A stretch of DNA of 15,213 nt, taken from positions 1-15,213 of the forward strand of contig JAJZOC010000015.1 of the NCBI GenBank assembly GCA_021852095.1. The letters run 5' to 3'. A model generated the notes under the pieces. It searched no databases, had not been told where the DNA came from, and saw only the letters and a list, made by a program, of their open reading frames with translations. Numbering within the stretch: the first letter of the stretch is position 1; every line of letters begins with the position of its first letter. This document shows, one piece after another, positions 7,309 through 15,213 of this stretch. This DNA is from a bacterium. Lineage in GTDB: Bacteria; Patescibacteriota; Microgenomatia; Levybacterales; UBA12049. The translations under genes were made by a program, and so were the position numbers.

Positions 7309-7596
7309 ATGAATACAGCGACAGTTAATTTTAAAACAGAACAGGAGATTAAAGAACAAGCACAGGAGATAGCTGAACATCTTGGTTTTACGCTAAGTTC
7401 TGTGTTGAATGCTTTTTTAAAACAGTTTATACGAACTAAAACCGTGTACTTTTCCGACAGAAAACCGGAAGTGCCAACACAGTACTTTCTGGATGCGATA
7501 AAAGAAGCAAAGAAAAATTTTAAAGAGGGTAAGCACTCTCCAGTATTTAAAACAGGAAAAGAAACAGTTGCGTGGCTTGAAAAACAGGGTATATGA
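7309..7596 (+). CDS. RelB/DinJ-family antitoxin
   Basis: 95 residues. The N-terminus has the RelB/DinJ ribbon-helix-helix: ATVNFKTEQEIKEQAQEIAEHLGFTLSSVLNAFLKQFI (about 4-42), with the typical G-x-T-x-S-x-x-x-x-x-F-L turn and second helix. The C-terminal part (YFLDAIKEAKKNFKEGK) is the toxin-binding helix region. It overlaps the toxin gene by 4 bases (ATGA). The dimer should bind the palindrome at 7283-7306. No Shine-Dalgarno is needed because the transcript is predicted to be leaderless. Confidence 0.88.
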   Translation: MNTATVNFKTEQEIKEQAQEIAEHLGFTLSSVLNAFLKQFIRTKTVYFSDRKPEVPTQYFLDAIKEAKKNFKEGKHSPVFKTGKETVAWLEKQGI

Positions 7597-7877
7597 ATGT
7601 AGTTTTAGATCCTGCCATCCACAAGAAACTTAAAAAACTTAATGTACGAACAAGAAAGAGCTTCAAAGAGAGAATAGAAATTTTTCAACTTAATCCTTTT
7701 GATCCGATTCTTGACAATCACCCGTTAGAACGGGAGCTCATCGGATACCGAAGTATAGATATCACAACAGATTATCGTGCAATATTTGAAGAATTACACG
7801 AAGGAGGAGAAAGAATATATTATTTCTTCCTTATCGGAACACATGATGAATTGTATAAACCGATAGAGGAATATTAA
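7593..7877 (+). CDS. RelE/YafQ-superfamily toxin
   Basis: 94 residues. The pattern is an N-terminal amphipathic helix region (HKKLKKLNVRTRKSFKERIEIF), then NPFDPILDNHPL, the strands GYRSIDITTDYRAIFEE and RIYYFFLIGTHDELY, as in RelE/HigB/YoeB-fold mRNA interferases. The strand D-I-T-x-D-Y-R-A-I-F is characteristic. It starts inside the antitoxin's stop codon (ATGA overlap), so translation is coupled. The exact subfamily (YafQ-like or mRNA-degrading HigB-like) is not certain. Confidence 0.85.
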   Translation: MNVVLDPAIHKKLKKLNVRTRKSFKERIEIFQLNPFDPILDNHPLERELIGYRSIDITTDYRAIFEELHEGGERIYYFFLIGTHDELYKPIEEY

Positions 7878-8565: not shown

Positions 8566-11556
8566 CTAAAGCTTTTTAGAGTCAATCAACCACCAGACAG
8601 CGGCCAGCGCCGCGGCTAAGAATACGAATCCTAAATATTCGAGGTACTGGGGCCAGAAAATAACGACGATTGTTTCATTGTTAAATTGTTTCATTGTTAA
8701 ATTGCTAAGACCCCAGCCGTTTTCCCAATTATTTACCAACGTATGATCCCTTAGCTCAGTGCCAAAAAGGAAGGGAAAAGTTATTTCGAGTGAATTTTGA
8801 ATTTTGAATTTTGAATTTTGAATTTCGTACGCTTTCCAACCTTCGTGATAAGCTTGATTTAAGATCAAATACTCATTTTTGCTTTTGGCGTTTTGTACTT
8901 TAACAGAGTACAAATAATATTGTAATTTTTGTGCGGTAAACTTGGATTGGGCTTTTGCTGTAATGATATTTTTATCGGACCTTTTAACTAAAGTTAAATT
9001 TTTAAGATAGTCGTAGGGCATTAAATAAATATTTAAATTGTCTAGTTCATTAACAGACGGAATGTTTTTATAGGAATTATTTTGAAAAGAAAGTTGGTAT
9101 CCGATGCCAGATTTGTATCTGGATCCGATTATGTAATATTGAGTATTATTAATCAGCCTATCCTCCGTATAGGATTGTTCATTGGTTTGATCTAGTATAT
9201 AGAAGAATAATTTTCTGCCCTTAATATTTCTATTTTCTATTTTTACTATATAACCATATTCTTGAGGTAAGCTATTATCCGGGTAGCCAAAACAGGCAAT
9301 GGCTCCGCCGTTTGAAGAAATAATTAATTTTTTATCCTTTGTTAGGGATAGAATATTTCCTTTTTTGCCGCAATTTGAGATCTTGGTTTTTGTAGGGTTA
9401 AAATCGTCAATTACTATTTTAGGGAATTTAACAACTATTTTTTGGCTGTCAATAGAGGTATAAATAGGAAGAATGAAGCTAATGGATGAGTTATCCTTAT
9501 ATAAGTTTATATCAATACTATTTGTCTTATTTAATACTCTATATTCGTTTTGATTTTTCGGCAATGAACCAATCATGTGCCAGTCGGAGTTTGATTCGCC
9601 CATAGTCCAGTTTTTTTTCTCAAGTCGTGTTTGAGTTGTCAGATCAAGAAACGGATAAAAAACGTCATAGTTTTTATTTGGATTAGTAATATAATCGCCA
9701 AATTTTAGATAAGCTGTGTCTTCGTTGGTTGTTTGTATGGCAGGTCCTATGTTTGGCAGATTTTTCTCAACACCCACAAAATTATCAATTTTTTTGCCAT
9801 GATTTACTTTATAAAGAGAAATAAAGCCCCATTTTTTAACCAGGCTGATTTTTTTACTGGCTGCAAAGATTGAGGCGAGCTCTGTATATTGTATTGATTT
9901 TGCGCTTGAGGCAATTGGATTTTGAGACTGGTCAAAAATTAGATAATTAATATCATACTTGTCAAGTACCTTTTCAAAGGCATTAATGTTTCCTGCGTCA
10001 AGCGCGTTCTTTTCTTCCCAGTAGTAATTTTCACTTTGTTTGCTCCAAACATCAAAGGTGCGGGAAACAATAGGCTGTTCTATGCCATACCATAAAAATC
10101 CTGAACCGTCATAGCCCCATTTAGTCTGAAACCAGCCCCAAAAAGTGGAATCGGGGAGAAGGGCAATTCGCTTATTCGGATCAACATGGCGGAAATAGTT
10201 AATCACAGAAAAATACTCCTTAGGAATCTTTACTTTCATAGCAGGTGAAATGTAATAGCCTTTGAAAGCCGGCAGGCTTTGAAAAATAATTAAGCTTGTC
10301 AAAATTAAGCCAAATAATGTAAGCATTATATTATTATTTTTAATTTTTTTTAGATAGAACCAGATCAAGTAAGTTCCGCAAGAGAAGAAATAGCTGGCAG
10401 TAAGTGCGTAGACTATACTAAACCGTGTAAAGGGCGATCTAAAAATTTCACTCAAGAATGAATTACTGTGCACAGAATCGGATATTAGATTAAAGGGGGG
10501 AGTATTGTTTAAGAGCGCAACTGCTACAAATGCGTATAAAATACTAAAAGAGGAACCATAGCGATTTTTATAGAAAAATCCCAAGATACACATACCGCTT
10601 AAAGCATAAATTACAATGGTTACTATTTCGTTATTTCTATGCTGTTTCCAGGCGGAGAAGATGGGGTTTTGGTTATTGTCAAGAAGATCGTAGTAATAGC
10701 CTGTAAAAGTCAGAAAGTTTTTAATTGAGCCGTTATCTTTATTGCTGTACCAGACATCGTTTGTAGATAGTTGATTAATCTTTGCCTGCTGTACGGTCTT
10801 TTCAGAAGTTTTTAGAAAATAGATTTGGGGTAGAATCCAGAAGCTGTTTATGGCTAGAATAAGAATAAAAGCTAGGATAGATTTTTTAAGAATAATTAGT
10901 TTTCTGGTATTAATTATCTGTCCTAAGGCAAGGATTCCCAGCACTAATCCATAAACCATAAATAGTTGTTGGGTGTAGCTTTGAGGGGTTGAAAGAATAT
11001 TTATGAGTAAAAATATCATCCAATTTTTGCGCGATGGCTTTTCGGATGTAATAATTTTTAAAAAAATCCAGATTTCCCAAGGAAGCATACCCAAAAAAAC
11101 AGAGAAAGCCTCGTAAGGCAGAAACATCATTTGAACCGTGGCAAAGTTTAAGATATAAAATAAAGCGCCCAAAACAGCAAAAACCTTTTTGTCTTTGTCA
11201 AATCCGGCAAATGTCAAAAGTTTAAGCATTCCGACTCCCGCAACAGCAACCATTGCCATATTAAAAAAATAGCGGATAATATTATTAGGCAAGATAAAAG
11301 AAAGAATCCAGATTATAAAAGCTCTGACAAGATCGGCAGAATGCGCCATGCCGGCAATTAGTCCAAAACTTTGGTATTCTTCCCAGACGGAAAACAGGGC
11401 GCGTTTTACTCCAAGAAAGGGATAAAGTTCTGTTTGTAAACTATCCCAGCCGACAAGATATGTCCCCGGTTTGTAATTGACAAAAAATAATACAAGAGCA
11501 ATACTAAAAACTGCTATAAAATGCCAACGCTTTCGGATAAGATTGTAAAAATTCAT
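8566..11556 (-). CDS. Large polytopic GT-C-like glycosyltransferase (YfhO/AftD-like)
   Basis: 996 residues. A basic N-terminus is followed by about 11-13 transmembrane helices to about residue 430. A long extracytoplasmic region (about 430-970) ends with a C-terminal helix (YLGFVFLAAALAAVWWLI). The first loop contains LVGWDSLQTELYPFL, with the acidic residues (GWDS and E) expected for lipid-sugar-dependent GT-C enzymes. Near the C-terminus NQAYHEGWKAYE resembles a motif of YfhO-type proteins. It probably transfers sugars from a polyprenyl carrier to a surface polymer or protein. It overlaps the upstream GT2 gene by 4 bases (ATGA). Two DNA tandem repeats are embedded in frame near the 3' end (8792-8826 and 8669-8704). 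The precise substrate is unknown. Confidence 0.75.
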   Translation of the reverse strand: MNFYNLIRKRWHFIAVFSIALVLFFVNYKPGTYLVGWDSLQTELYPFLGVKRALFSVWEEYQSFGLIAGMAHSADLVRAFIIWILSFILPNNIIRYFFNMAMVAVAGVGMLKLLTFAGFDKDKKVFAVLGALFYILNFATVQMMFLPYEAFSVFLGMLPWEIWIFLKIITSEKPSRKNWMIFLLINILSTPQSYTQQLFMVYGLVLGILALGQIINTRKLIILKKSILAFILILAINSFWILPQIYFLKTSEKTVQQAKINQLSTNDVWYSNKDNGSIKNFLTFTGYYYDLLDNNQNPIFSAWKQHRNNEIVTIVIYALSGMCILGFFYKNRYGSSFSILYAFVAVALLNNTPPFNLISDSVHSNSFLSEIFRSPFTRFSIVYALTASYFFSCGTYLIWFYLKKIKNNNIMLTLFGLILTSLIIFQSLPAFKGYYISPAMKVKIPKEYFSVINYFRHVDPNKRIALLPDSTFWGWFQTKWGYDGSGFLWYGIEQPIVSRTFDVWSKQSENYYWEEKNALDAGNINAFEKVLDKYDINYLIFDQSQNPIASSAKSIQYTELASIFAASKKISLVKKWGFISLYKVNHGKKIDNFVGVEKNLPNIGPAIQTTNEDTAYLKFGDYITNPNKNYDVFYPFLDLTTQTRLEKKNWTMGESNSDWHMIGSLPKNQNEYRVLNKTNSIDINLYKDNSSISFILPIYTSIDSQKIVVKFPKIVIDDFNPTKTKISNCGKKGNILSLTKDKKLIISSNGGAIACFGYPDNSLPQEYGYIVKIENRNIKGRKLFFYILDQTNEQSYTEDRLINNTQYYIIGSRYKSGIGYQLSFQNNSYKNIPSVNELDNLNIYLMPYDYLKNLTLVKRSDKNIITAKAQSKFTAQKLQYYLYSVKVQNAKSKNEYLILNQAYHEGWKAYEIQNSKFKIQNSLEITFPFLFGTELRDHTLVNNWENGWGLSNLTMKQFNNETIVVIFWPQYLEYLGFVFLAAALAAVWWLIDSKKL
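8669..8704. repeat. 16-bp tandem repeat inside the large membrane protein gene
   Basis: ATTGTTTCATTGTTAA occurs at 8669-8684 and 8685-8700, with a partial third copy. It encodes the NLTMKQFNNET part near residues 951-962. The 13-mer CATTGTTAAATTG (8676-8688) occurs inverted at 12691-12703, upstream of the same operon. Confidence 0.85.
8792..8826. repeat. Heptanucleotide tandem repeat inside the large membrane protein gene
   Basis: GAATTTT four times, then GAATTTC (8792-8826, 35 bp). It encodes the IQNSKFKIQNS segment at about residues 911-921. The total length equals that of the rplJ repeat (five units of 7). Confidence 0.92.
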
Positions 11557-12452
11557 TTCTGTACCTCTTTTTCAAACTTTAAGTAAGAGATTTTAGAAAA
11601 TATAGAAGATAATGTATTTTGAGTTGTAATTCCTGTTCTTATTTGTTTATAAATTTTTAAACTGACCTTTTGGGGCAGAAGAAGGACAACAAAGGTTTCT
11701 ATAAGGGAAATAAAGACAACTTTAACAGAAGGGCGATACCCGTATTTGAATATAGATTTTATTCTTGTGTAGAGAGTAAGCATAAAAGTATTTTTTATAT
11801 TTATAAGCGAGGTATTTGATTCATGGAGTCTGTATTTTAAAACCGTTTCCGGTAGATTTTCCACTTTTCCGTGAGAGAACAATTTAAAAATTAGCTCTAC
11901 TTCTTCTGCGGTATTCATGCCGTCTACATAATATTCAAAATCTATGGGAAGTCTTTTGCCGGCTATCATAAGCGTTGGCTGTTGAACCGGTACAAATTGA
12001 AAAATATAGTTATAAACATCTTTGAACTTGGTTGGAAATTTTTTTACGCCTATATTATTGCCATCCTTATCAATAATGATGCATTGTCCGCCAATAGCAA
12101 CAGTTTTTTTATGCCTTTGCAGATAGTTTATTTGTGTTTCCAATCGTTGAGGCATTGCTATATCGTCAGCATCCATACGAGCTATAAAAATACCTCTTGA
12201 TTTATTTATTATTTCTCTAACCGTTGCGGAAATGCCAAGATTGCGACTATTTCTAAATAGTTTTATTCTTTTATCCTGCGCAGCGTACTTTTTAAGTATT
12301 TTCCACGATTCATCGGTTGATGCGTCATCGGTAATAATAAACTCAAAGTTTTTATAGGTTTGACTAAGAATGCTCTCAACAGCCTCTGCGAGATACTTTT
12401 CCGCGTTATAAACAGGCATTATAACCGAAACTAACGGCTTTGTTTCTTTCAT
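11553..12452 (-). CDS. Family 2 glycosyltransferase
   Basis: 299 residues from the ATG at 12452. The GT-A fold is clear: VSVIMPVYNAEKYL (about 8-21), AVESILSQTY, FIITDDASTDES (39-50), then the metal/nucleotide-binding D-A-D at 94-96 in ARMDADDIAMPQRLE. The acceptor half ends in a membrane-associating hydrophobic helix (VVFISLIETFVVLLL). It transfers a sugar from a nucleotide-sugar donor at the cytoplasmic face. The start is chosen because the ATG overlaps the stop of the upstream small gene (ATGA), with AAGGA 6 bases ahead. A GTG-type extension to 12488 would overlap that gene by 40 bases. Its 3' end overlaps the 996-residue gene, so the genes form a coupled operon. Confidence 0.92.
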   Translation of the reverse strand: MKETKPLVSVIMPVYNAEKYLAEAVESILSQTYKNFEFIITDDASTDESWKILKKYAAQDKRIKLFRNSRNLGISATVREIINKSRGIFIARMDADDIAMPQRLETQINYLQRHKKTVAIGGQCIIIDKDGNNIGVKKFPTKFKDVYNYIFQFVPVQQPTLMIAGKRLPIDFEYYVDGMNTAEEVELIFKLFSHGKVENLPETVLKYRLHESNTSLINIKNTFMLTLYTRIKSIFKYGYRPSVKVVFISLIETFVVLLLPQKVSLKIYKQIRTGITTQNTLSSIFSKISYLKFEKEVQK

Positions 12453-12652
12453 TTTAATCCTTTCTCTTTCATGCAAAATTGATACCAATAGCCGTCTGGC
12501 ACCTGCGCATCTTGACCGGCCGAGTTTTTAAATCTATCTGTTCCTGCATGAAGGCATCCGTCAATTGCCTGATAACGGATTGCCTCCTGTGCCGCAAAAT
12601 AGGTAGCAGCTAAAGTAAATATTGCTAGAATGGTAATAATAATAGTCTTCAT
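12449..12652 (-). CDS. Small exported hypothetical protein
   Basis: 67 residues, not recognised. An N-terminal hydrophobic segment (TIIITILAIFTLAATYFAA, about 3-21) acts as signal peptide or anchor, followed by a roughly 45-residue extracytoplasmic part with two Cys (DGCLHAG and YQFCMKE) that could form a disulfide. Its stop overlaps the GT2 start, so it is the first gene of that operon. No Shine-Dalgarno precedes the ATG. A 12-bp inverted repeat (12663-12694) lies 10 bases upstream, and the hammerhead ribozyme lies 66 bases upstream. Confidence 0.7.
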   Translation of the reverse strand: MKTIIITILAIFTLAATYFAAQEAIRYQAIDGCLHAGTDRFKNSAGQDAQVPDGYWYQFCMKEKGLK

Positions 12653-12662
12653 ATTTTATTTA

Positions 12663-12694
12663 ATTGTTAGATTGCTTATTAACAATCTAACAAT
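12663..12694. repeat. 12-bp inverted repeat before the small exported protein
   Basis: ATTGTTAGATTG (12663-12674) and CAATCTAACAAT (12683-12694) are perfect arms around an 8-base loop. On the minus strand it would be a hairpin in the 5' region of the 67-residue gene. It is flanked by the 13-mer shared with 8676-8688. There is no T-run for a terminator, so an operator or RNA stability element is possible. Confidence 0.75.
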
Positions 12695-12718
12695 TTAACA
12701 ATGCAACAATAGTTTTTG

Positions 12719-12786
12719 TCCCTTTCGTCCTGCCCCTCGACTTTGCTCGGGGAGGAACTCATCAGTCCGGCTTTGCCGGAAAGGGA
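12719..12786 (-). ncRNA. Type III hammerhead ribozyme
   Basis: The minus strand has every conserved core element. Stem III: UCCCU (12786-12782) with AGGGA (12723-12719), including the U16.1-A15.1 pair. The residue at H17 is U (12781). Stem I: UCCGGC (12780-12775), loop AAA, GCCGGA (12771-12766). The core CUGAUGA is at 12765-12759. Stem II: GUUCCUCCCC (12758-12749) with GGGGCAGGAC (12736-12727), having two single-base bulges and a 12-base loop. GAAA is at 12726-12723. Stem III is the open helix, hence type III. Predicted cleavage is between 12781 and 12780, leaving a 2',3'-cyclic phosphate on the upstream RNA. U at H17 is less common than C but allowed. It separates the GC-rich surface-protein unit and its structured RNA from the glycosyltransferase operon. 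Confidence 0.88.
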
Positions 12787-12802
12787 AAGGTATACAGGGG
12801 TT

Positions 12803-13066
12803 GGGGTTTTGTCTCGTGAGAGACGATCGCGTAAACGCGATTAAAACCTCTCCCGAGAACCTTCCCACACTGTGGATTAATCGTAAACGATCATCTCGAT
12901 TTCACCAGCTTTTGGTGAGTCAAAATGAAAGTTTCGACCTCCATAGTTCTAACAGGATAATTCTGCTCGCCGCACACCGTTGTGCATTTTCATACATCGT
13001 TGTATGAGAGAGCGAGCAAAACCGCTAGTGGCAGAGAGAAGCTTGCGCTTGCTCTCCACGAGTAGG
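12803..13066 (-). ncRNA. Highly structured RNA region upstream of the hammerhead
   Basis: Perfect hairpins cover this 264-base stretch. In minus-strand order they are: a long hairpin GTGG-AGAG-C-AAGC-GCAA-GCTT-CTCT (about 13057-13028) with a GNRA loop; a three-way junction closed by TGCTCGC/GCGAGCA (13018-12964) holding CATACA/TGTATG and GCACA/TGTGC hairpins; TCACCA/TGGTGA (12918-12902); ATCG/CGAT (12891-12880); CCACA/TGTGG (12875-12865); and a second three-way junction closed by GGTTTT/AAAACC (12848-12805) holding ATCGCG/CGCGAT and GTCTC/GAGAC. The strand is chosen from the flanking genes and ribozyme. It matches no RNA family known to me. It overlaps the last 42 bases of the upstream gene. 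Confidence 0.7.
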
Positions 13067-13618
13067 GTTACGAACACCATCCGTTAACGTTCCCGACGTG
13101 GGTGCGTTAAGCATTAGACACTGACCAAAAGTTTGGCCATTGTCTAACTGGATGCTGTATGCGAGGACGTTGTCGCCGGCCGAGAATCGGAGAGTGGCAC
13201 CTTTGCCGCTTATCACCCGAGGGTGATTTAGATCGCATGGCTTTTGGCCATGGATTTCAGCCCCCCAGGGGTTTACTACTCCGGATGTAACGGTTCCGCC
13301 AGTTGGCGCTATAGAAAGATAACATCCTTCAAACCCACCTAGATTGGGAATTTGGATATATCCTCCAAGCACCGCTTCATTCGGATCGAACGAAATCGTT
13401 CCTGTGGAACCAGAGGTTCGGCGTGTAGCCAAACTCCCGATCGTAAATTCTTGCGTACCGCAAGAATTTCCAACGTTATGCCCGACCCAGACCGGATGGT
13501 TGGGATGGAAAACGTTGTCAACATACCAGAAGGTCTGGCATGTTTCGGCGTGCGTTGGAACGGGAGTAGCAGCTATAACAATCGCGAGCGCGAAGAGAGC
13601 GATAAAAAACTTTTTCAC
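13025..13618 (-). CDS. Secreted protein with two copies of a Cys-containing module
   Basis: 197 residues from GTG 13618, preceded by GGAG 6 bases upstream. ATG 13630 is an alternative. A classical signal peptide runs from KKFFIALFALAIVIAATPV to a likely cleavage after THA (about residue 24). The mature part begins with a roughly 45-residue segment with two Cys, then two repeats of the same module: about 71-128 and 139-196. The shared pattern is F..(4-5)..V..Y.I......(F)..C...(A)AP..GT...GV..P...E......C. One further copy ends the neighbouring 13791-14840 protein. Fold and function are unknown; a disulfide-stabilised surface or binding module is likely. Base composition is GC-rich, unlike most of the window. 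Longer start choices (to 13750) have no Shine-Dalgarno and would run through hairpin-rich leader DNA. Confidence 0.75.
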   Translation of the reverse strand: MKKFFIALFALAIVIAATPVPTHAETCQTFWYVDNVFHPNHPVWVGHNVGNSCGTQEFTIGSLATRRTSGSTGTISFDPNEAVLGGYIQIPNLGGFEGCYLSIAPTGGTVTSGVVNPWGAEIHGQKPCDLNHPRVISGKGATLRFSAGDNVLAYSIQLDNGQTFGQCLMLNAPTSGTLTDGVRNPTRGEQAQASLCH

Positions 13619-13630
13619 GGAAATCTCCAT

Positions 13631-13790
13631 CCTGAAATTTTTGGTCGCTAGGATCGCGAGATTTGCTGGGGTCACGACATAGCATATGCGCATTTCGGTT
13701 TCCCGAACTAAGCGGCTCGCTCGCCCAGCACAGAACGTTTGGGTTCCCAACCCGAACTAGGATCAATCTCCCTTTCGCGAATGAAGACTC
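13631..13790 (-). promoter_or_regulatory. Hairpin-rich leader between the two exported-protein genes
   Basis: On the minus strand GGGTT-GGG-AACCC (13753-13741) and TTCGG-GAAA-CCGAA (13707-13694, GNRA loop) each follow a TAGTTCGGG copy (13759-13751 and 13710-13702). Further down TCGC/GCGA (around 13657-13644) precedes the AGGATGGAG Shine-Dalgarno region. A regulatory or processing role is inferred only from structure. Confidence 0.45.
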
Positions 13791-14840
13791 TTACTGGTTG
13801 CACCGTTGTGCTTTGGTAACCTCGGCCTTCCATGGGTGTACGACTCCGTCTACGACAGTGCCGTTTCCGGGCGCGGAAGCGAACCAGCAGTTATTATAGG
13901 TGTTGCCATTAACCGTGATTCGGTATCCGTAGACCGCGTCTCCCTGCTGGAAGGTTGTTGAACCACCGGTGTCCGCCGTTGCTTTTCGAGGTTTTCCATC
14001 GACCGTGTCGCTGGATCCTCCTGAGCTAGGCGATGGGTTGGTTGGCGGCGGCGACGCTTGGGTATTTGACTGCGTAGCAGGAGTAGCAACACTCTGTTGC
14101 TTCTGTCCCGGCCCGCAGTTGTTAAACCCAGGCGTTCCACACGGGGGCGATGCGATGGGAGATCCCCATTGCTCAACCTGATCGTACGACTTTACCGGAC
14201 AACCATAGTCGGCATGCTGTTCGTACGCGTTCTGAACGACCAACGTCTTAACCCATCCGGCAATATCGCTGGTAGCGACATTGTAAACAGTGACGTTAGC
14301 GTCCTTCACGGTGAGGTTCTCGAACCATCCATTCGGGCTCAACACCACCAGCGCGCAACGTCCGTTGGAACTAGAGTTCGCAACTTTGTTGCCCCAAGTG
14401 ATGCTTGCGCCCTTGACGATCCCGACCTGAGTCGCGTTCTGTCCCGAAGGAAGTGTCAACGAGCCCATCGTCCCAATGTCCCAGACGCAACCGCCGAGAG
14501 AGTTTTTCTCCGGGCCGCAACTCTGAGAGTAGAAGGGGTAGGGGTTGAACGAACTACCAGTCGGAACGCTCGTCGGCTGGGGAGCCGGCGTCGATACGGC
14601 CGTTGCGGCGGGCACCGGAGTGGTGCTCGCTGCAGGCGCGGCGGTCGGCGGCACGGTTGCCGTCGGTACCGCGGTCGCGGTCGGCGCAGGCGCTGCCTGT
14701 GCTGCCGGCGGATTCTGCTGCGTCGTTGCAGCAGAGGAGATGGACCAACGTGGCCAAATCAATGCTGAAATCAGCACAATCACCACTAGTGCGGTGACGA
14801 TGCCTATCCAGACCAATCTGGCCAAGATCCATGCAAGCAT
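13791..14840 (-). CDS. Membrane-anchored surface protein with Pro/Thr/Ala-rich stalk
   Basis: 349 residues. An N-terminal transmembrane helix (about 5-29) is followed by a Pro/Thr/Ala/Val stalk (about 38-98) of the kind used to span a cell wall. A globular part with Cys (about 99-245; QSCGPEKNSLGGCVWDIG, RCALVVLSPNGWF) follows, then a second Gln/Ser/Pro-rich linker (about 246-293). The C-terminal module (294-349) is homologous by eye to the two modules of the 13025-13618 protein. The strong Shine-Dalgarno AAGGAG is 7 bases before the ATG. The stalk codons are very GC-rich (47 of 60 bases in 14641-14700). The protein family was not recognised. It likely acts with the secreted neighbour on the cell surface and may be a glycosylation target of the downstream operon. 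Confidence 0.78.
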   Translation of the reverse strand: MLAWILARLVWIGIVTALVVIVLISALIWPRWSISSAATTQQNPPAAQAAPAPTATAVPTATVPPTAAPAASTTPVPAATAVSTPAPQPTSVPTGSSFNPYPFYSQSCGPEKNSLGGCVWDIGTMGSLTLPSGQNATQVGIVKGASITWGNKVANSSSNGRCALVVLSPNGWFENLTVKDANVTVYNVATSDIAGWVKTLVVQNAYEQHADYGCPVKSYDQVEQWGSPIASPPCGTPGFNNCGPGQKQQSVATPATQSNTQASPPPTNPSPSSGGSSDTVDGKPRKATADTGGSTTFQQGDAVYGYRITVNGNTYNNCWFASAPGNGTVVDGVVHPWKAEVTKAQRCNQ

Positions 14841-14969: not shown

Positions 14970-15213
14970 GTTTCCCTCCTTTTTTTATTCTTGGAATCCA
15001 TTATGAAGACGAACAGACTAATTTTAAATTTAAAATTTTTAATTTTTAATCAATTTTTAAATCCAAACGATCAAATTAATCGTCATTCCCGCGAAGGCGG
15101 GAATCTAATTAATGCTTCGACTTCGCTCAGCATTAATCCTGAGCTTATCGAATGGATTAACCCGAAGCTTTAATGTGCTAATTGGATTCCCAGAATAAAA
15201 AAAGGAGGGAAAC
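14970..15213. repeat. Element bounded by 34/35-bp inverted copies
   Basis: The minus-strand sequence 15003-14970 and the plus-strand sequence 15179-15213 are the same apart from one inserted T and one A/C change: TAAT(T)GGATTCC, then AGAATAAAAAAAGG and AGGGAAAC. They face outward, 175 bases apart, and the right copy ends at the last base of the window. Between them are AT-rich DNA and GC-rich palindromic repeats. This could be a MITE-like element with terminal inverted repeats, or duplicated outward-facing leaders (each ends in a Shine-Dalgarno-like AGGAGG). Confidence 0.75.
15083..15155. repeat. Nested palindromic repeats (dispersed repeat family)
   Basis: ATTCCCGC-GAAG-GCGGGAAT (15085-15104) is a perfect hairpin of the widespread ATTCCC...GGGAAT type. 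ATTAATGCT/AGCATTAAT (about 15108-15116/15128-15136) encloses TCGACTTCGCTC. ATCCTGAGCTTATCGAATGG (15136-15155) is the inverted relative of 4685-4704. Confidence 0.8.

Follow-up and report, generated by a model that had tools for sequence, protein, structure and literature searches.

The window, that is, the whole stretch of 15,213 nt that was analysed, carries on its minus strand a series of genes interrupted by a putative hammerhead ribozyme. The series begins with a gene for a probable surface protein of 349 aa (13791..14840), in which an N-terminal membrane segment and a Pro/Ala/Thr-rich linker were recognized by eye and whose one relative with a group name comes from a Microgenomates bacterium, most likely also the group of the host, followed by a GC-rich gene (13025..13750) for a probably exported protein, 241 aa as listed, with an N-terminal hydrophobic segment by eye; searches of Pfam, NCBIfam and PHROG returned no family for the latter. 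Behind the surface-protein gene lies a highly structured spacer (12789..13024, minus strand; minimum free energy -86.2 kcal/mol), then the hammerhead (12719..12786), a gene for a 67-aa protein (12449..12652), a gene for a family 2 glycosyltransferase (GT2; 11553..12488; PF00535, E = 3.4e-38), and a gene for a 996-aa protein (8566..11556), all on the minus strand. The 996-aa protein had no Pfam match of its own; its relative in genome G039 gave a weak match to GT-C_AftD (PF11847; E = 5.4e-5, 21.8 bits, cut-off 26). When the six neighbouring proteins were compared with PHROGs, the GT2 alone matched (a GtrB-like family and one unknown family). A promoter at TGTATACC was considered and rejected, as none was called there by a sigma-70-type scan.

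Several other features of the window were recorded. A Ribosomal protein L10 leader (RF00557; 5490-5305, minus strand) scored 55.8 bits, above its gathering score, and the ORFs after it look like L10 and L7/L12 by eye. A palindromic repeat containing TCATTCCCGCGAAGGCGGGAATC (15067-15176, plus strand) gave a weak FtrB match of 28.8 bits, below gathering. Small ORF pairs resembling toxin-antitoxin modules by eye were located at 7309-7877 and 61-616 on the plus strand.

The hammerhead was delimited by reading of the sequence, by the Rfam model RF00008 and by a new covariance model, R1 (R1 match 12788-12717), and has type III topology, with stems I and II closed and stem III open. Stem III comprises 5 bp, its 5' strand (12782..12786) pairing with 12723-12719 both on reading and in constrained folds, and includes the U16.1 (12782)-A15.1 (12723) pair. 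The stem I hairpin (12766..12780; 6 bp, loop AAA) is formed by 12780-12775 with 12771-12766, including U1.1-A2.1, and its pairing is also reflected in compensatory changes relative to G039. The catalytic core CUGAUGA (C3 U4 G5 A6 N7 G8 A9) occupies 12759..12765, and G12 A13 A14 (12726-12724) with A15.1 (12723) occupy 12723..12726. Stem II (12727..12758), which was read from the sequence and seen in constrained folds, carries a bulged U (12757) and a bulged C (12732); the G10.1-C11.1 pair (12758/12727) is followed by pairing of 12756-12749 with 12736-12728 around the bulged C. Under the hammerhead cleavage rule, by which the cut falls between positions 17 and 1.1, cleavage is predicted between U17 (12781) and U1.1 (12780). 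An initial annotation had assigned 12719..12786 of the minus strand to a complete type III hammerhead, with cleavage between 12781 and 12780; the type and coordinates were right, the cleavage position agrees with our reading, and every feature that could be tested on the sequence (CUGAUGA, GAA, the three helices, A15.1-U16.1 and U1.1-A2.1) was found on rereading.

Imposing the hammerhead fold cost 2.2-3.6 kcal/mol relative to the unconstrained minimum in the window and its near copy G022, and 1.2 kcal/mol (G091) and 2.1-9.6 kcal/mol (G039) in relatives, with an energy model that ignores hammerhead core contacts. In the predicted folds, the spacer of the window was able to pair with the 5' strand of stem III, a pairing that might act as a regulatory switch. 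A contact between stem I and stem II makes hammerheads fast; in the window such a contact is not evident, because loop I is only AAA and stem II is long and bulged (U12757, C12732), and none could be named from the sequence. The H17 residue is U (12781), which usually cleaves more slowly, and not G, which blocks cleavage. Judged by its sequence, the stretch is almost certainly a real hammerhead, and the ribozyme is quite likely to be active.

Detection with RF00008 was marginal. On 141 nt around the hammerhead the model gave 20.8 bits (E = 0.02) and did not reach the gathering score of 48.5; over the entire window it reported no hammerhead at E <= 1, and over the genome of origin no match at E <= 0.001, the window hammerhead having there E = 0.022. 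Among 373 genomes of the class, 45 had matches at E <= 0.1 and none exceeded the gathering score; the gathering score therefore does not define the ribozyme here, and the Rfam cut-off misses the hammerhead copies of the class. Because chance matches are not negligible for RF00008 at E <= 0.1, the model R1 was built from 17 RF00008 hits of the class (alignment A2), with the window excluded. In A2, 14 of the 17 pairs showed both-sided changes, and the covariation score was 0.80 against 0.17 or less for slid structures. R1 recognized the window hammerhead at 34.0 bits (E = 1.9e-7 in 115 kb; E = 1.1e-6 in its own genome). Across a sample of 379 genomes of the phylum, 48 had R1 matches at E <= 0.001, and among 82 genomes of the order, 14 had them at E <= 0.01. 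The lack of a significant covariance-model hit, which the initial annotation had named as speaking against a ribozyme, applied only to the Rfam model at its gathering score; with R1 the hit was significant. A pattern search of the order matched 4 of 82 genomes, compared with 2 when the pattern was read backwards; the match in G082 was discarded as chance, as it lies inside an ORF and has no visible stem I, and on reading, G047 and G010 proved to have partial DNA matches that are not hammerheads.

Conservation was evaluated on 119 copies (alignment A5), which leave out the seven loci L055, L099, L140-L143 and L145. Double changes occurred in 16 of 17 pairs, and the doubly changed cells numbered 690 compared with a shuffled mean of 199.5 and at most 141 for slid structures in this alignment, which is fitted to the model. 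The core varied at positions 4 and 7 only. At H17, C was present in 89 copies, U in 18, A in 10 and G in none, with a gap in 2. U is also found at H17 in the divergent relatives G039 and G091 and therefore looks kept rather than decayed. The initial annotation had named a changed core with kept stems as the pattern that would speak against a ribozyme; the opposite was found, the related loci keeping the core and changing the stems. Chance resemblance, or a decayed ribozyme without function, could draw on the score below Rfam gathering, and is scarcely credible against the covariation, the conservation of H17 and the core, and the recurrent gene order described below. Chance agreement had been called unlikely from the start, and the E-value of R1, which was trained without the window, together with the covariation in G039, bears this out.

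A DNA search of 60 related genomes recovered the hammerhead almost unchanged in G022 (99%) and in a divergent form in G039, a genome from a different family within the order (78% across 87 bases of the query). Most of the other matches in this search were made up of AT-rich stretches, scattered in the genome of origin and in related genomes, that resemble the AT-rich inverted and direct repeats behind the hammerhead at 12656-12710. In the G039 copy (L003/L023), the core is kept, the free position N7 is changed from U to C, and stem I shows, on our reading of the alignment, two compensatory pair changes. The gene order is of the same kind, with a probable surface protein, a spacer, the hammerhead, a glycosyltransferase and a relative of the 996-aa protein. 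The first glycosyltransferase differs by family, being GT2 in the window and group 1 (PF00534) in G039 and G093, and a relative of the 67-aa protein stands after the G093 hammerhead. Between 13694 and 11406, where the comparison ends, the window shares 99.7% identity with G022, and at 15192-14858 it shares 92%; between 13694 and 14858 on the minus strand, the window has the 349-aa gene and G022 (L203) a different gene of 223 aa, the two resembling each other only in short stretches and in the N-terminal membrane segment. The motif CCTGTATACC stands directly 5' of the hammerhead (12789..12798, minus strand) and also precedes the hammerheads of G022, G039 and G091, with close variants in G083, G001 and G069; the G083 version forms one arm of a hairpin.

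Among the 82 genomes of the order, 39 encode a relative of the 996-aa protein, hereafter GT-C-like. Fourteen of the 82 bear hammerheads, and ten of these (G000, G022, G093, G027, G083, G069, G039, G001, G091 and G007) have one upstream of the GT-C-like gene on the same strand, at a distance of 0.04 to about 5.2 kb; not all of the ten are independent lineages, since they include G000/G022 and two same-genus pairs. GC-rich ORFs precede the hammerhead in most of them. Because the place recurs in related genomes, the initial description of the location, in a CPR genome beside glycosyltransferases, as unusual does not hold. In 29 of the 39 genomes with a GT-C-like gene, no R1 match was present at that place. 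With the R1 filters off, the upstream regions of 27 of these 29, some of them shortened by contig ends, yielded one weak candidate, in G079 (18.3 bits, E = 0.011), all others having E >= 0.2; a scan of 12 of the 27 regions with Rfam models detected no ribozyme. Accordingly, the notion that every genome carries a ribozyme ahead of its glycan genes was rejected.

In family f30, of the same class, the hammerhead, a GT2 and a relative of the 996-aa protein stand in a row at L029, L049 and L057, and a hammerhead and a GT2 at L032 and L040. The next same-strand gene within 150 nt encoded a glycosyltransferase in 11 of 56 cases (9 PF00535, 2 PF00534). Upstream genes within 400 nt were represented by proteins of 91 out of 94 loci (L087, L122 and L145 dropped) together with the two window surface proteins; among these 93, PF00535 or PF00534 was found in none and any Pfam match in at most 22, and 25 PHROG families were hit, most by one protein each. 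The upstream genes were GC-richer than the 600 nt behind the hammerhead, with a median difference of 8 points and a difference above 5 in 58 of 94.

Glycosyltransferases are the sole recurrent downstream family, which would suit a leader of the glycosyltransferase operon, in which cleavage, perhaps tuned by a ligand or a protein, would remove the 5' part, set a 5'-OH and free or block the start region, so that control would act mainly downstream. The GT2 start codon lies a few bases from the 3' edge of the hammerhead at the f30 loci L029, L032, L040, L049 and L057, and the published HHphage is located 13 nt before a helicase start (PMC3088659). In the window, however, 65 nt and the 67-aa ORF separate the hammerhead from the GT2, and a naive caller put the nearest downstream ORF on the opposite strand 47 times out of 123, where a leader is impossible. 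We consider this account rather unlikely.

The position of the hammerhead relative to gene ends was determined for 126 loci, a set from which G022 was excluded as a near copy and in which L055 (21.3 bits, perhaps chance) was retained. According to the naive ORF caller, 102 loci had their nearest upstream ORF on the same strand and 20 on the opposite one, while 4 had none; for the nearest downstream ORF the corresponding numbers were 76, 47 and 3; in the window itself the caller took an antisense ORF as the upstream gene, which counts against the claim on orientation. Among the GTDB loci listed, a same-strand ORF ended within 400 nt upstream in 97 of 101, and in 61 of 101 the other flank had the end of an opposite-strand ORF at no more than 400 nt. 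These orientation counts suggest that hammerheads tend to mark gene ends; in CPR and viral contigs alike, most of them come after the end of a gene.

The RNA between the gene end and the ribozyme is strongly folded. The window spacer had z = -6.2, with none of 100 shuffles as stable, and spacers at seven further loci in the order gave z-values of -5.3 to -8.1; the mean z of spacers was -4.8 (n = 71) compared with -2.4 for other 3' gaps of the same loci (n = 62). A hairpin of up to 55 nt and -15 kcal/mol or lower abutted stem III in 41 of 125 loci, where shuffles gave 6.9; the counts were 33 of 112 among the GTDB loci listed (shuffles 7.0) and 36 of 73 in viral contigs (shuffles 4.0). Equal-width windows further upstream contained a hairpin of this stability in 12-21 of 125 loci; the spacers are therefore hairpin-rich overall, and the position at the edge adds about twofold to threefold. 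No abutting hairpin of up to 55 nt was found in the window or in G039, and 61 of 125 loci had none at -10 kcal/mol. When spans of up to 99 nt were allowed, longer structures appeared in the window, two of them overlapping or reaching stem III, a result obtained without shuffle comparison.

The excess of abutting hairpins in all three sets is what would be expected if the folded 3' UTR, often a hairpin, and the hammerhead together formed a terminator-like end of the upstream gene, the downstream gene being incidental. Such a 3'-end module appears improbable, since the excess over neighbouring positions is about twofold to threefold, the short hairpin is missing from the window, from G039 and from nearly half of the loci even at the relaxed threshold, and the recurrent glycosyltransferase neighbour is left unexplained.

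The ribozyme of the window is one of many predicted from sequence in tiny, mostly uncultured bacteria. The exact pattern CTGANGAGTCCNAAAGGACGAAA matched at least 118 stretches in GTDB-220 genomes; the 80 matches listed, some of which share a genome, comprised 61 with CPR names, 17 from bacteria without a group name and 2 others, a Phycisphaerales and a Polynucleobacter bin. By the same pattern, 86 stretches of viral contigs (IMG/VR) carried the hammerhead core. A fold finder independent of R1 recovered the full type III fold in 116 of 130 among the GTDB matches listed, a set that partly overlaps the loci found with R1 (H17: C 83, U 19, A 14, G 0), and in 74 of 90 viral matches (H17: C 63, A 10, U 1, G 0). 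Arrays of similar hammerheads on one strand, cassette-like between different ORFs, were observed at L106 (six; G529), L107 (six; G027) and L109 (three; G570).

Such arrays, and the presence of the core in viral contigs, raise the question of whether the hammerhead is the trace of a mobile unit, in which a GC-rich orphan gene and the hammerhead would move as a cassette and the ribozyme would process an RNA intermediate, as described for plant retrozymes. The GC-rich islands do end at the hammerhead, and the surface gene differs in G022. On the other hand, the window has a single hammerhead, no reverse transcriptase or target duplication was noticed, and the difference between G000 and G022 ends at 13694, leaving the hammerhead untouched; a mobile unit is therefore highly improbable.

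Our best explanation, which we hold to be reasonably probable, is that a cis-acting self-cleaving ribozyme divides a single primary transcript into two messages. Transcription would run on one strand from the surface-protein gene or genes through the folded spacer and the hammerhead into the glycosyltransferase genes, and the hammerhead, once transcribed, would cleave after U12781. The upstream message would then end a few bases behind a folded 3' UTR, with a 2',3'-cyclic phosphate, and the downstream message would carry a 5'-OH followed by the hairpins of stems I and II. Decay and translation may then proceed at different rates for the two messages, for example with an abundant surface protein and a scarce glycosyltransferase. 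The motif, its covariation, the conservation of the core and H17, the strand, the recurrent gene order and the structured spacer come from the sequences themselves; a transcript that reads through the site, its cutting inside the cell and unlike fates of its two parts are proposed. Against it stand the stem I-II contact that is not evident and the usually slower U at H17, the order genomes that have a GT-C-like gene and lack an R1 match before it, the missing short hairpin that abuts many other hammerheads, the ability of the spacer to pair with the 5' strand of stem III, and the dependence among the supporting relatives. A broader and distinctly more tentative proposal is that CPR bacteria and the viruses that share the hammerhead may have an RNA-only system for making mRNA ends, in which a folded 3' UTR, often closed by a hairpin, is followed by a ribozyme that sets the 3' end and separates cistrons; in the order of the window, this element may have become a conserved component of the locus linking a rapidly changing surface protein with glycan genes.

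Several related genera keep a chromosomal hammerhead between the same kinds of genes, and in the window this occurs without adjoining phage genes. More than 100 further CPR loci, the majority preceded by the end of a gene and a folded spacer, bear on the role of bacterial hammerheads, which PMC6155905 and PMC3088659 state as open.

The ribozyme was finally compared with known systems. It resembles the type III hammerhead of RF00008 in the core, the order of helices, the open stem III, the U16.1-A15.1 pair and an H17 other than G, and differs from it in the low score, the long and bulged stem II, the 3-nt loop I and U at H17. The likeness to the glmS ribozyme lies in self-cleavage in bacterial mRNA beside a sugar-related gene, with cleavage in the window being predicted only; the fold of glmS is unrelated to that of the hammerhead, and it uses a metabolite cofactor. 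Retrozymes have tandem hammerheads flanking a unit, whereas the window, in which the contig ends at 15213, gave one R1 match. The mammalian Clec2 hammerhead is likewise of type III and located in a 3' UTR, but is discontinuous and eukaryotic (PMC6155905). A further parallel concerns the prophage clusters, hammerheads between co-directional genes, for which Perreault et al. 2011 (PMC3088659) showed cleavage both in vitro and in E. coli and suggested a role in cutting phage transcripts into single messages. These clusters contain several hammerheads beside phage genes, whereas the window has a single copy in a CPR genome, the six neighbouring proteins compared match no phage family except those of GT2 type, and glycosyltransferase neighbours recur in several genera. 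Among the literature matches listed, from a scope that mostly leaves out subscription papers, no paper joined hammerhead ribozymes with CPR. Since the cutting of transcripts was already proposed for prophages (PMC3088659), the mechanism is not new; relative to that proposal, and with no claim to priority, what is new is the setting of the hammerhead between surface-protein and glycan genes of CPR bacteria.
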